This document shows, in pieces, positions 67 through 6,557 of a stretch of 14,816 nt of DNA. Both the position numbers and the translations under genes were made by a program. A model generated the notes under the pieces. It was not told the origin of the DNA. It worked only from the letters and a program-made list of their open reading frames with translations, and ran no database searches. How positions within the stretch are numbered: position 1 is the first letter of the stretch; every line of letters starts with the position of its first letter. Source of the stretch: a bacterium (lineage in GTDB: Bacteria; CAIJMQ01; JAADFP01); NCBI GenBank assembly GCA_027021085.1, contig JALUVB010000106.1, positions 1 through 14,816 of the forward strand, read 5' to 3'.

Positions 67-750
67 ATGCATGGAGAGGGAGTAAGCAGTTACGCTTACA
101 ATAACTGGGGAACGGTGCTTTTTAGTGTTTCCTTCTTTATTTTGTTTGCCCTGGGTTTTTTAAGGCCGAGGAAGAAGGTGGAATGGCGTTCCATGGGCGT
201 ATTTTTCTCCTTCCTGGCGGTGCTCTTTATGGAAATGTACGGTTTTCCCCTTACCATATTTTTGCTGGTTTCTTTGCTGGGCAAGAGCTATCCGGTGCTG
301 GATCCATTTTCCCATGCCAGCGGGCACCTGATTCTGGTATTCCTGGGGCTTGCCCACTCTGCGCTGGCCATGGTGATACTCCATTTTATCAGCAATGGAT
401 TCATATTTTTTGGGCTTTACCTGATGTACAGGGGATGGAAACTTATCTACCAGGCAGGGGGCAAAGAACTGGTGAAAGACGGGATATATGCCCATCTGCG
501 CCATCCCCAGTACGATGGCATATTTTTAATCACCGTTGGTTTTCTTATCCAGTGGCCCTCTTTGACTACTTTGCTCATGTGGCCTATACTTATATTTGCC
601 TACTACAAGTTGGCCATGAGAGAAGAAAGGGAACTGGAAAAGCAGTTCGGGGAGGAATTTTTGCAGTATAAGAAAAGTGTCCCTGCGTTTATCCCCCGAT
701 TAAGGCTGGAGGCAGGAAAAGATTTATCCTGCCCGGTAAAAAAGGAATAG
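67..750 (+). CDS. Isoprenylcysteine carboxyl methyltransferase (ICMT/PEMT)-family membrane protein
   Basis: A 227-residue polytopic membrane protein. Hydrophobic segments lie at about 15-32, 43-70, 88-120 and 150-183. The C-terminal half carries the ICMT/PEMT signature: GIYAHLRHPQYDG (139-151), which binds S-adenosylmethionine in this superfamily, then REERELEKQFGEEF (185-198) and the closing YKKSVPAFIPR (201-211). The N-terminal part (DWRS/EWRS-like segment, MEMYGFPLTI at 56-64, SHASGH at 82-87) matches the version often found in copper and other metal-resistance islands. That resemblance is recalled from family knowledge and was not searched. The substrate is unknown; bacterial homologues need not methylate prenylcysteine. 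The start at 67 is supported by AAGGAGGGG at 51-59. Eight bases separate the gene from the next one, so an operon is likely. The methyltransferase fold is well supported, the function is not. Confidence 0.85.
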   Translation: MHGEGVSSYAYNNWGTVLFSVSFFILFALGFLRPRKKVEWRSMGVFFSFLAVLFMEMYGFPLTIFLLVSLLGKSYPVLDPFSHASGHLILVFLGLAHSALAMVILHFISNGFIFFGLYLMYRGWKLIYQAGGKELVKDGIYAHLRHPQYDGIFLITVGFLIQWPSLTTLLMWPILIFAYYKLAMREERELEKQFGEEFLQYKKSVPAFIPRLRLEAGKDLSCPVKKE

Positions 751-758
751 GGCTTATT

Positions 759-1469
759 ATGCAGCAATACGTGTGGCTCATCTGGTCATTGTTGCTCCTG
801 GTTATCTGGTGCTTCTTTTTTATCTTTAAAAAGAATCTGCGTAAAGAGATGATCTGGGCAAGTGTATGGACGGCACCACTTGGGCTTACTGAGCCGCTCT
901 TCGTTCCCGGGTACTGGAATCCGCCTTCCCTTTTCAACCTGGCAGAAAAAACGGGATTTGATATAGAGAGTATAATCTTTTCCTTTGCTATCGGGGGGTT
1001 AGTGGCCATTATTTATGAGGTGTTTTTTAAGACAAGGCATATTAAAATGGATATAGAGGAACATTACCACAGGCGGCACCGGTTTCATGCCCTGGCTGTA
1101 AGTTCACCCCTGCTTATCTTTGTGGCCCTGGCGGTTTGGACAGATTGGAACCACATATACTGTGCTATTGTTGCAATGTTTTTAGGCGGTATTGCCGCAA
1201 TCATATGCAGGCCTGACCTCAAGAAAAAGGTCTGGGTAGGCGGCTTATTGTTTCTGGGCTTCTACTTTGTATTTTTCGTTACCCTGGTGGCCGTTTTCCC
1301 GAATTATGTAAGAGATGTGTGGAATTTTTCCCAGATATCCGGGGTATTGATTCTGGGAGTGCCCCTGGAGGAGCTTTTGTTTGCCTTTTCCCTGGGTATG
1401 CTGTGGTCGAGTCTTTACGAACATATACACTGGTATAAGTTGGCAGGTGTTCACCGGGCAGGTGCTTAG
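759..1469 (+). CDS. Lycopene cyclase domain-containing membrane protein
   Basis: A 236-residue protein with about seven hydrophobic segments (5-23, 31-48, 70-90, 111-127, 131-150, 158-180, 193-222). It shows the two internal half-repeats of the lycopene cyclase domain family: a GYWNPPSLF segment (51-59) with DIESIIFSFAIGG (68-80), and later VPLEELLFAFSLG (201-213), whose PxEE core is conserved in heterodimeric and fused carotenoid cyclases. No phytoene synthase, desaturase or other carotenoid gene is visible, so lycopene cyclase activity should not be assumed. Many bacteria carry this domain without a carotenoid cluster. It lies between the ICMT-type methyltransferase and the potassium channel. 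The ATG at 759 has an AGGAATAGGG-like ribosome site overlapping the end of the preceding gene. Confidence 0.8.
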   Translation: MQQYVWLIWSLLLLVIWCFFFIFKKNLRKEMIWASVWTAPLGLTEPLFVPGYWNPPSLFNLAEKTGFDIESIIFSFAIGGLVAIIYEVFFKTRHIKMDIEEHYHRRHRFHALAVSSPLLIFVALAVWTDWNHIYCAIVAMFLGGIAAIICRPDLKKKVWVGGLLFLGFYFVFFVTLVAVFPNYVRDVWNFSQISGVLILGVPLEELLFAFSLGMLWSSLYEHIHWYKLAGVHRAGA

Positions 1470-1474
1470 AGAAA

Positions 1475-2218
1475 ATGGATAAAGAGACGCAAGATATCTG
1501 GGTCCGCTTGAAACTGAGCGTGGCGGTGCTCATCCTGGTGGTGATAGCAGGAACGTTCGGCTTTCGCTTTTTTGAGAAGGGAAATGTTCCTACGCTGTTA
1601 GATTCATTTTTTTTCACCCTGGTTACTATTACCACGATTGGCTACGGTAATATTACTCCCCAGACCCTGGCTGGAAAGATTCTGGATATTATAGTAATTT
1701 TACTGGGGGTGGGGACAGTTCTGGTTACTTTCCAGACTATTTTTGAGGTTATCGTGAGAAAGAGAATAAAGGAGGTGTTGAGATTGCCTGCAGGAGCAAT
1801 GGATAAGAAAAATCATTTTATTGTCTGTGGATACGGTAAAGTGGGAAGGGCCCTGGTTAAGAGATTGGTGCAGGAAAGTGCACAATTTGTAGTAATAGAG
1901 AACGATTCCGAAAAGGTAAAAGAGATGGTTCAGGCTGGTATTCCCGTGGTGGAGGGGGATGCGCGGCAGGATGAAGTGCTGGAAAGGGCCGGGATTAAAA
2001 AGGCCAGGTATCTTCTGGCCTCCCTGGATGATTCGTATAATGTTTTCATTGCCTTAACGGCCAAGATGCTTAATCCGGATTTAAAGGTTATTTGCAAAAC
2101 GGAGGATGTAATGAACGAAGCCAAGTTGAAGAAAGCAGGAGCTGACGAGGTGGTTCTCTGCCACGACATGGGAGCCCAGATGATGCTGGAGCGAACCGGA
2201 GAGGAGAAAGATGATTAA
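1475..2218 (+). CDS. Two-TM potassium channel with RCK/TrkA-N domain (MthK-like)
   Basis: A 247-residue membrane channel. The layout is an inner helix at about 13-32, a pore helix, the selectivity filter TTIGYGN (53-59), a second helix at about 66-93, then an RCK (TrkA-N) Rossmann domain. That domain opens at HFIVCGYGKVGRALVKRL (114-131) with a typical GxGxxG turn, and has an acidic end to the second strand (VVIEND) and EGDARQDEVL. This is the MthK/Kch plan: potassium selectivity with cytoplasmic ligand or nucleotide gating. At 247 residues it ends after RCK-N and has no TrkA-C domain, so it is shorter than MthK (336). The ATG at 1475 lies 5 bases after the preceding stop, and the last 8 bases overlap the next gene (ATGATTAA), indicating translational coupling. 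An internal Met109 sits where MthK has its Met107 internal start. Confidence 0.9.
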   Translation: MDKETQDIWVRLKLSVAVLILVVIAGTFGFRFFEKGNVPTLLDSFFFTLVTITTIGYGNITPQTLAGKILDIIVILLGVGTVLVTFQTIFEVIVRKRIKEVLRLPAGAMDKKNHFIVCGYGKVGRALVKRLVQESAQFVVIENDSEKVKEMVQAGIPVVEGDARQDEVLERAGIKKARYLLASLDDSYNVFIALTAKMLNPDLKVICKTEDVMNEAKLKKAGADEVVLCHDMGAQMMLERTGEEKDD

Positions 2219-3275
2219 AGACCCTGTCTGCGGAATGGAAATTGAGGAAGAGGAGTTTACTATTGAATTTGAGGGGAAGAAATACTATTTTTGTTCGGCA
2301 GGTTGTAAGAATAAGTTTAAGAATTCTCCCCGGAAGTTTTCCCGGGAGTATATTCATGACCTGGTTATCATTGGCGGTGGCCCGGCCGGGGTTACTGCGG
2401 CTGTATATGCTTCCGTGTTGAAGATAGATACCATGGTGGTAACCATGGATATAGGCGGTCAGGCGGTGGATAGTTCAAAAATCAAGAATTATATGGGGTT
2501 TGACTTTATCACGGGGAAAGAACTTACCAACAAGTTTAAAAACCAGTTTCTGCATCAACATTACCTGGACCACATGATAGATGAGGTGGTTAAAATTAAT
2601 CGAAGAGGAAAAGGGTTTGAGGTATTGACTAAGTCAGGGAAAACGATTCGTACTCGTTCTGTCATTATCGCCACGGGGATGAAACGGAGGAGGTTGGGGG
2701 TCCCCGGGGAGGAACGTTTGCTCCGAAAAGGTGTATCCTACAGTTCGGTCCAGGATACGGCTCTATTCAAGGGTATGGATGTGGTGGTTATCGGGGGAGG
2801 TAACTCTGGCATCCAGACTGCCAACGATTTGAAGAAGCTGGGCTGCAGGGTAACTTTAGTCTCGCAGGGAAAGCTTATAGGCGATGATGCTGATATTGAG
2901 AAACTGAAAAAAAGTGAAAGAGTGAATATACTGGAGGGATACGATGTGGAGGAAATCAGGGGTAAGGATAAAGTGGAAAGTGTGCTGGTGCAGTCGCGGG
3001 ATAACCTGATAAGGAAGGAGATTCCCTGTGGAGGTGTCTTTATCCAGATAGGGCTTTTGCCGAATACGGAGTTCTGTCGTGGGCTGGTTAAATTGAATGA
3101 AAAAGGGGAAATAGTAATAAATCCTGATTGTTCCACTAACGTGGAAGGAATATTTGCCTGTGGGGATGTAACTAACGCTTTTGGCAAGAGGATAGTTATT
3201 GCTTCCGGGGAAGGGGCCAAGGCTGCCCTGAGAGCTAAAAAGTATCTTCTGGAGAAAAAGGAAATGCTGGAATGA
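2211..3275 (+). CDS. YHS domain fused to thioredoxin-reductase-like flavoprotein lacking CxxC
   Basis: A 354-residue fusion. Residues 1-43 form a YHS domain with DPVCGM (4-9) and YYFCSAGC (25-32), so Cys7, Cys28 and Cys32 are candidate ligands for copper or another soft metal. Residues 48-354 are a thioredoxin-reductase-like flavoprotein: FAD site GGGPAG (55-60), GGQ (82-84), IATG (153-156), NAD(P)H site GGGNSG (195-200) and the C-terminal FAD motif CGD of FACGDVTNAFG. Where thioredoxin reductase reads SACATCDG, this protein reads SYSSVQDT (176-183). Both redox cysteines are therefore gone, while Asp182 remains at the catalytic-acid position. It cannot act as a canonical thioredoxin reductase. 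Options are a ferredoxin-NADP reductase-like enzyme or direct electron transfer to a metal or thiol held by the YHS domain; both are inference. The start has GGAG upstream and overlaps the channel gene by 8 bases. Confidence 0.88.
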   Translation: MIKDPVCGMEIEEEEFTIEFEGKKYYFCSAGCKNKFKNSPRKFSREYIHDLVIIGGGPAGVTAAVYASVLKIDTMVVTMDIGGQAVDSSKIKNYMGFDFITGKELTNKFKNQFLHQHYLDHMIDEVVKINRRGKGFEVLTKSGKTIRTRSVIIATGMKRRRLGVPGEERLLRKGVSYSSVQDTALFKGMDVVVIGGGNSGIQTANDLKKLGCRVTLVSQGKLIGDDADIEKLKKSERVNILEGYDVEEIRGKDKVESVLVQSRDNLIRKEIPCGGVFIQIGLLPNTEFCRGLVKLNEKGEIVINPDCSTNVEGIFACGDVTNAFGKRIVIASGEGAKAALRAKKYLLEKKEMLE

Positions 3276-3340: not shown

Positions 3341-3625
3341 ATGGACCATAAGATTACTCATTCAGAAAGTCTGGTGGATTTGAAAAGAATCGAGGGGCAG
3401 ATTCGGGGAATTCAGAAAATGATTGAGGAGAGGAAATACTGTGTGGATATTGTAATCCAGATTTATGCCGCTATCAATGCGCTCCGTCGGGTATCAGAAA
3501 AAATCTTTTCCAAGCATATTGAACACTGCGTAGTGGAATCTTTGCAGGGAAAATCCGATGAGGAAAAGAGGCAAAAGATAGACGAAGTAATGGATATTAT
3601 CAGGAGGATTCACAAGTTAAGATAA
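3341..3625 (+). CDS. CsoR/RcnR-family metal-sensing transcriptional repressor
   Basis: A 94-residue all-helical protein of the CsoR/RcnR/FrmR (DUF156) family. The conserved LKRIEGQIRGIQKMIEE helix spans 14-30. Sensor residues Cys34, His59 and Cys63 match the C-H-C Cu(I) site of CsoR, and Tyr33 precedes the first Cys as in Mycobacterium CsoR. The N-terminal His3 and His7 leave an InrS-like H-C-H-C nickel site possible. Formaldehyde-type FrmR and persulfide-type CstR are less likely because His59 and Cys63 are both present. In the family, the apo-tetramer binds operator DNA and metal releases it. The ATG at 3341 has AAGGAGAG 8-15 bases upstream. The gene closes the plus-strand set after a 65-base gap, so it probably represses this operon through a promoter outside the window. 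Confidence 0.93.
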   Translation: MDHKITHSESLVDLKRIEGQIRGIQKMIEERKYCVDIVIQIYAAINALRRVSEKIFSKHIEHCVVESLQGKSDEEKRQKIDEVMDIIRRIHKLR

Positions 3626-6212: not shown

Positions 6213-6557
6213 CTACTCTTTGTCCTTGTTCATCATGCCACCGCCCATCATCCCACCACCCATCATGCCTTTTCCCTGCATGGGGCAATCCATATTCATT
6301 TTTTTTCCGTGCATGCCGGCTGAGGCGATATGTTTAAGAACTTTCTGGTACCAGGAGGAGCGTTCTTTAATTGCTTTGACTACCTCGGGTTTATCTGAAG
6401 TAATTGTAACCTGCAGCCCATTGTCAATATTTTTTACGGTAACTTCAACATCTTCCAGTTTGGAAGGAGTCGAGGCATCGTGGGCATAGAGTACACCCGC
6501 TGTCAGCAAACCTGCCAGCATTGCAAAGCCAAAACTGAACAGAATAAATCTTTTCAT
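6213..6557 (-). CDS. Small exported Met-rich protein, unknown function
   Basis: A 114-residue protein with a clear signal peptide (MKRF, then a hydrophobic stretch 4-22 and likely cleavage after LYA at 23-25). The mature part has a strand-rich segment EVTVKNIDNGLQVTITSD (38-55), a helix with SSWYQKVLKHIA, then KKMNMDCPMQGKGMM and a tail of three GMM/GGGMM units before KDKE. Met, His (26, 76, 83) and Cys91 give it the look of a periplasmic Cu(I)/Ag(I)-binding protein, which is inference. I do not recognise a named family. The ATG at 6557 has a strong GAGGAGGTG ribosome site. It lies 61 bases after the DUF5667 gene and just before a terminator, so it is probably the last gene of the ECF sigma operon. 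The GGGMM units also form an imperfect DNA tandem repeat (6229-6268). Confidence 0.75.
   Translation of the reverse strand: MKRFILFSFGFAMLAGLLTAGVLYAHDASTPSKLEDVEVTVKNIDNGLQVTITSDKPEVVKAIKERSSWYQKVLKHIASAGMHGKKMNMDCPMQGKGMMGGGMMGGGMMNKDKE

Follow-up and report, generated by a model that had tools for sequence, protein, structure and literature searches.

A conserved family of YHS-flavoprotein fusions that lack the thioredoxin reductase CxxC, with a probable part in copper handling

The fused gene and its surroundings

The window, by which we mean the whole stretch of 14,816 nucleotides analysed here, carries on its forward strand an operon in which a YHS metal-binding domain is fused to a flavoprotein of the thioredoxin reductase/AhpF type, and the fused gene is followed by that of a copper-sensing repressor. 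The features on which the argument rests are these.

67..750, forward strand: PEMT/ICMT-type membrane methyltransferase
759..1469, forward strand: lycopene-cyclase-domain membrane protein of the same operon, conserved in the sister locus L013
1475..2218, forward strand: two-TM ion channel plus TrkA-N (RCK) potassium-channel gene, its order kept in L013
2211..3275, forward strand: fused YHS - thioredoxin-reductase/AhpF-like flavoprotein gene (354 aa, from translation)
2214..2339, forward strand: YHS metal-binding domain (residues 2-43), with candidate ligands D4, C7, C28 and C32, each present in 41/41 aligned fused sequences
2355..3272, forward strand: FAD/NAD(P)H-binding core (residues 49-354), nearest to AhpF and thioredoxin reductases
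2553..2573, forward strand: HxHYxxH motif (H115-x-H117-Y118-x-x-H121), family-specific, a candidate second metal site
2742..2753, forward strand: S178-S179-V180-Q181 at the CATC position, Q181 standing for the second Cys
3189..3191, forward strand: R327, Arg in fused proteins and Gln in unfused relatives
3341..3625, forward strand: CsoR-family copper-sensing repressor (PF02583, 91.9 bits), 65 bp downstream of the fused gene

The potassium-channel gene and the fused gene overlap by 8 bp, and the order methyltransferase, lycopene-cyclase-domain protein, K+ channel/TrkA-N, fused gene and CsoR is common to the window and a sister genome (L013). The start of this operon, including its own promoter, probably lies on the neighbouring contig C105, which, judging by synteny with the sister species, probably abuts the window start; a promoter scan stayed at chance level, and neither Rfam families nor tRNA genes were found in the window. 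A row of genes on C105 (genome G000, locus L017, 142-1943) encodes small YHS proteins, four in number, together with one secreted protein rich in Met and one small protein rich in Cys. The window likewise encodes, at 6213-6557 on the reverse strand, a small secreted Met-rich protein (GMMGGGMMGGGMM, MDCPM), a possible copper binder that resembles Met-rich proteins near P1B genes in loci L047, L048, L051 and L058.

In the fused protein, the YHS part matches PF04945 at 53.4 bits, above the cut-off of 30.3, and contains the aspartate and three cysteines expected of such a domain, while Pyr_redox_2 matches residues 50-331 at 145 bits (both Pfam). A short linker joins it to the flavoprotein core, in which the low-Mr thioredoxin-reductase/AhpF fold is complete, with GGGPAG at 55-60, GGGNSG at 195-200 and CGD at 317-319. 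With both Pfam domains in one 354-aa frame, the fusion that had been proposed from the letters of the window is real, and translation of 2211-3275 confirms the details then listed, namely Cys7, Cys28, Cys32, the FAD and NAD(P)H sites and SSVQ at 178-181. The loop reads Y177-S178-S179-V180-Q181-D182, and the sequence-only reading was right to regard it as replaced rather than deleted, Asp182 being kept here and in 39/41 of the fused family.

The nearest solved relative is AhpF (4o5q/1fl2; best PDB match, with a core identity of 37-38% and E 1.8e-56), the CPHC of which aligns opposite SSVQ. AhpF and thioredoxin reductases are also the top structural matches (VIA Z 36) of a predicted model of the fused protein (pLDDT 86.8, pTM 0.80), in which the YHS part is among the weaker regions (pLDDT blocks 71-81) and is attached at the start of FAD-domain strand 1. 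AhpF shares the fold and the NADH-type NAD site and is likewise extended N-terminally, from the same point, by a further domain; that domain, however, consists of tandem thioredoxin domains and AhpF has the CxxC, whereas the fused protein has a YHS domain, no tandem thioredoxin-like domain and no CxxC, and scores 271.8 bits against the AhpF model TIGR03140, below its equivalog cut-off of 502.9. The low-Mr thioredoxin reductase TrxB resembles the fused protein in fold, core length and the motifs for FAD and NAD, but fused members have neither CATC nor HRR and have Arg in place of TrxB's Gln at 327, and the TRX_reduct model TIGR01292 gives 269.2 bits, short of its equivalog cut-off of 343.45.

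Conservation of the fusion and of its altered loop

At least 44 fused relatives were found, with nearly all frames intact: five, at 43-50% identity, in a broad genome sample and at least 39 (L039-L077), at 41-94% identity, in a scan of genome contigs. They span at least ten phyla, with members in Nitrospirota, Myxococcota, Bacteroidota, Omnitrophota and Spirochaetota as well as in Caldisericota, Calditrichota, Stahliibacteriota, Acidobacteriota and Deferribacterota. The protein of the sister genome (G001) is 94% identical to that of the window and has an identical SSVQ loop. None of the 41 aligned fused sequences has a CxxC, and no fused member with a legible loop has one either; the family consensus is GNIQ, most commonly within Y-G-N-I-Q-D. 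Every unfused relative compared keeps the CxxC, mostly as CATC, including a paralogue that is encoded in the same genome as the window, on contig C256.

This comparison of the 176-183 loop across homologues is the one that the sequence-only reading had called for, and the observation named beforehand as telling against it, a homologous fusion with an intact CxxC, was encountered neither among the contig-scan matches listed nor in about 430 sampled genomes, the last two samples of relatives mostly overlapping the first. Among the best 20 plasmid matches, none spanned YHS and core. An error of sequencing or assembly, or a gene in decay, might be suspected given that the window comes from a draft genome of 307 contigs; we reject this with near certainty, because the sister species shares the gene, its loop and the gene order, and because the gene recurs in at least 44 relatives, nearly always in an intact frame.

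A tree of the flavoprotein core, computed after removal of the loop columns, places all 41 fused sequences on one side of a single branch with support of 100; the window's protein belongs there to a subclade of six, together with Omnitrophota and a Bacteroidales MAG. Since the fused sequences form one clade, the gain of the YHS domain and the loss of the CxxC fall together on the tree as sampled here. The YHS-flavoprotein fusion without CxxC is a conserved family, present in ten or more bacterial phyla.

Other residues also set the clade apart. D87, M95, D98, Y118, H121, M157, R159, R172, Q181, Q202, S308, R327 and I330 are nearly fixed in fused proteins and different in unfused ones, with Y118, H121, M157 and Q202 invariant across the clade. 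At position 181, fused proteins have Gln (37) or His (4), against Cys in 19/19 unfused relatives; residue 327 is Arg in all fused members in which the region is present, against Gln in 19/19. Y118 and H121 occur in 41/41 fused sequences and are absent from unfused ones, H117 occurs in 32/41 and H115 in 22/41, and the HxHYxxH motif with at least two His is found in 37/41 fused proteins and is essentially absent from unfused ones. The last YHS cysteine (C32) and the FAD motif are 22 residues apart in 37/40 fused proteins, which amounts to a short, fixed linker. The HRR motif, long established in thioredoxin reductases and AhpF as telling NADPH from NADH use, occurs in no fused member, and because of this absence NADH, rather than NADPH, is the likely cofactor of the family.

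Copper genes around the fused loci and the role of CsoR

Neighbouring genes were counted around 44 fused loci (519 kb) and around 22 loci of the nearest unfused CATC relatives (266 kb) as controls. A P1B-ATPase lies near 25/44 fused loci versus 1/22 controls (Fisher p=3.1e-5), and any of P1B, CsoR, CusA or multicopper oxidase near 31/44 versus 1/22 (p=1.9e-7), values to be read in the knowledge that the fused loci are partly non-independent, that some contigs are short and that the controls are unmatched by genome. Thirteen of the 44 fused loci have no copper marker, several of them on short contigs. In nine loci (L040, L042, L050, L062, L067, L069, L141, L143 and L148) the P1B gene abuts the fused gene, at 40 bp or less and on the same strand. 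The MxxSS signature of Cu+ pumps is found in 16 of the neighbouring P1B ATPases and the CPH signature in four, and all six neighbouring ATPases tested score above the TIGR01511 copper cut-off (NCBIfam). YHS domains also occur frequently as stand-alone proteins and as parts of P1B ATPases, whether close by or at other places in the genome, and in L045 the gene for a YHS-histidine kinase lies directly upstream of the fused gene and overlaps it. No conserved gene for a redox partner or acceptor recurs among the neighbours of the fused loci, ferredoxin and flavodoxin included; no mer genes were recognised among their annotated neighbours; and the window itself contains no P1B gene, the ATPases of this genome being on other contigs. 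The P1B-ATPase counts bear out the metal-handling setting that had been suggested for the gene and identify the metal as copper, and we consider it very likely that the fused family is linked to copper.

Some further observations concern these neighbourhoods. The PEMT/ICMT-type methyltransferase is found near 7/44 fused genes and 0/22 controls. In several loci a second FAD-dependent oxidoreductase (NAD_binding_8) adjoins the fused gene or lies close to it (L143:9101-10222 and L148:5814-6941, both on the reverse strand, L074:9519-10646 and L073:10001-11269). The genome's second copper pump appears to be a CPH-type, CopB-like P1B ATPase with a His/Met-rich N-terminus (L149:3082-5211, G000 contig C95). 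The C256 gene (L014:815-2130), the closest CATC paralogue of the fused protein, is located beside genes that read as desulfoferrodoxin-like and rubrerythrin-like, which suggests a part in oxygen or peroxide defence.

The product of 3341-3625, matched by PF02583, has the Cys-His-Cys copper ligands of a CsoR: its Cys34, His58 and Cys62, lying in YC and HxxxC, align with the residues that bind Cu(I) in Geobacillus CsoR (4m1p). The ligand positions were also drawn from PMC3902906, where S. lividans CsoR operators are described as TAC-X9-GTA. No other CsoR is encoded in the genome. The matching sequence TACCCC-N3-GGGGTA occurs in only two perfect copies in 1.93 Mb, both on contig C298 (L150:5779-5793 and L150:7767-7783), one lying about 34 bp upstream of CopA and the other about 42 bp upstream of a DsbD-like/HMA (CopZ-like)/thioredoxin-like cluster. 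Since this sole CsoR finds perfect operators only on C298, and none stands out in the window, where six matches at up to 3 mismatches are at chance level, it probably governs the CopA locus in trans. Of the earlier suggestion that the fused gene is under CsoR control, it thus holds that the next gene encodes a copper-type CsoR, the only one in the genome, but the operators themselves point to the CopA locus.

A possible copper mechanism and its alternatives

Our tentative reading is that the fused protein is an NADH-dependent copper-handling flavoprotein whose most likely task is to reduce copper, or to load it, for export through P1B pumps, and in which a core of the AhpF/thioredoxin-reductase type would have been redirected from disulfide reduction to metal work. 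We infer that such a protein would use NADH, bind copper, reduce it and hand it over. NADH would reduce the FAD, as the intact motifs and the lack of HRR suggest. With the CxxC gone, the usual electron route to a disulfide is closed, and electrons would instead leave the flavin singly and go to copper bound at D4, C7, C28 and C32 of the YHS domain, a step that would form the crux of the mechanism; the HxHYxxH site might hold further copper. The product would be YHS-bound Cu(I), which could then pass to a P1B copper ATPase, or be held in readiness for it, whether that ATPase is encoded alongside or elsewhere.

This is consistent with the loss of the CxxC in one clade that at the same time keeps its YHS ligands invariant and has gained His, Met and Arg residues, and with the co-localisation of P1B and other copper markers and a copper-type CsoR next door. 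IruO, a CxxC-less protein of the TrxR-like type, sends electrons to iron substrates (PMC10294844), and CcoG and the A. fulgidus CopZ with its FeS domain are cupric reductases that convert Cu(II) to Cu(I) (PMC7558416), the same job as is proposed here, though performed there with iron-sulfur clusters and here by a soluble NADH flavoprotein. On the other hand, the short fixed linker at FAD strand 1 may keep the YHS domain well away from the flavin in the same subunit, and both the 13 loci without copper marker and the window's want of a P1B gene speak against this reading. Moreover, cytosolic copper is usually Cu(I) already, so it is not evident why a cupric reductase would be required. Somewhat more tentatively still, the family might represent widespread soluble NADH-dependent copper reductases or Cu(I)-loading enzymes, not described before, that serve copper pumps of the P1B-1 and P1B-3 types in bacteria, most of them uncultured, from at least ten phyla.

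The main rival, which we regard as conceivable if doubtful, is a copper-regulated reductase in which the YHS domain would act as an on/off copper sensor and the acceptor would be a quinone, an oxygen species, ferredoxin/flavodoxin or some other partner. To our knowledge, the only YHS-enzyme fusion that has been tested is the adenylyl cyclase of M. phlei. Its YHS domain is an allosteric copper sensor on which micromolar Cu2+ acts specifically and in which, as in the fused protein, there is a set of Asp and three Cys, proposed there for copper (PMC4626032); the enzyme is a different one, however, and its YHS domain is C-terminal. The YHS-histidine kinase of L045 and the short, fixed linker would likewise suit a sensor, but no conserved acceptor-protein gene recurs among the neighbours, and the gained His and Met positions would be superfluous for pure sensing. 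It is also conceivable, though unlikely, that the enzyme serves Cu(I)/thiol maintenance, keeping reduced the thiols of its own YHS domain or those of neighbouring YHS/HMA domains in P1B ATPases and chaperones. The frequency of stand-alone YHS proteins and YHS-bearing P1B ATPases would agree with this; the flavin-side dithiol of the fold is, however, absent from all fused members, and direct flavin-to-disulfide transfer would require the YHS CxxxC to reach the flavin.

The core without CxxC is a trait that the fused protein shares with the TrxR-like FNRs, IruO/FNR1 among them (PMC10294844), such that ferredoxin or flavodoxin could be its partner. We hold this to be improbable: in PDB sequence matches AhpF/TrxR reach 194 bits versus about 96 bits or less for solved FNRs, which have no YHS domain and differ in loop and neighbours, and neither a ferredoxin nor a flavodoxin gene recurs nearby. 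Finally, a metal-binding domain placed N-terminally on an NAD(P)H flavoprotein recalls the working of MerA with its NmerA, and stand-alone TRASH domains are known from archaeal mer operons (PMC3466566); a MerA-like reductase of mercury or another metal, with YHS in NmerA's place, is nevertheless highly improbable, as MerA belongs to another subfamily, the fused protein has no catalytic cysteine pair, nor any Cys in the flavin-side loop, and reaches 69.4 bits against TIGR02053 (cut-off 454.45), and its context is one of copper, with Cu-type ATPases dominating and no mer genes recognised among the annotated neighbours.

Returning to the copper-handling flavoprotein that we favour, its parts, the YHS domain and the AhpF/TrxR fold, are known, and what is new is their combination, the linked motif loss and the consistent copper setting; no description of a YHS domain joined to a CxxC-less flavoprotein was found in the open literature searched. 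Taken together, we argue that the fused family is probably an uncharacterised NADH-driven copper-handling enzyme, the linkage to copper being well supported and the chemistry being what we infer. How copper is reduced for P1B export in bacteria is poorly understood, and here the members of an entire clade carry a copper domain in exchange for the dithiol of thioredoxin reductase, with copper pumps encoded beside them. If copper is indeed reduced or loaded by these proteins, they would offer a simple, expressible enzyme with which to test how NADH drives copper handling, and a natural example of a disulfide reductase that became a metal enzyme.
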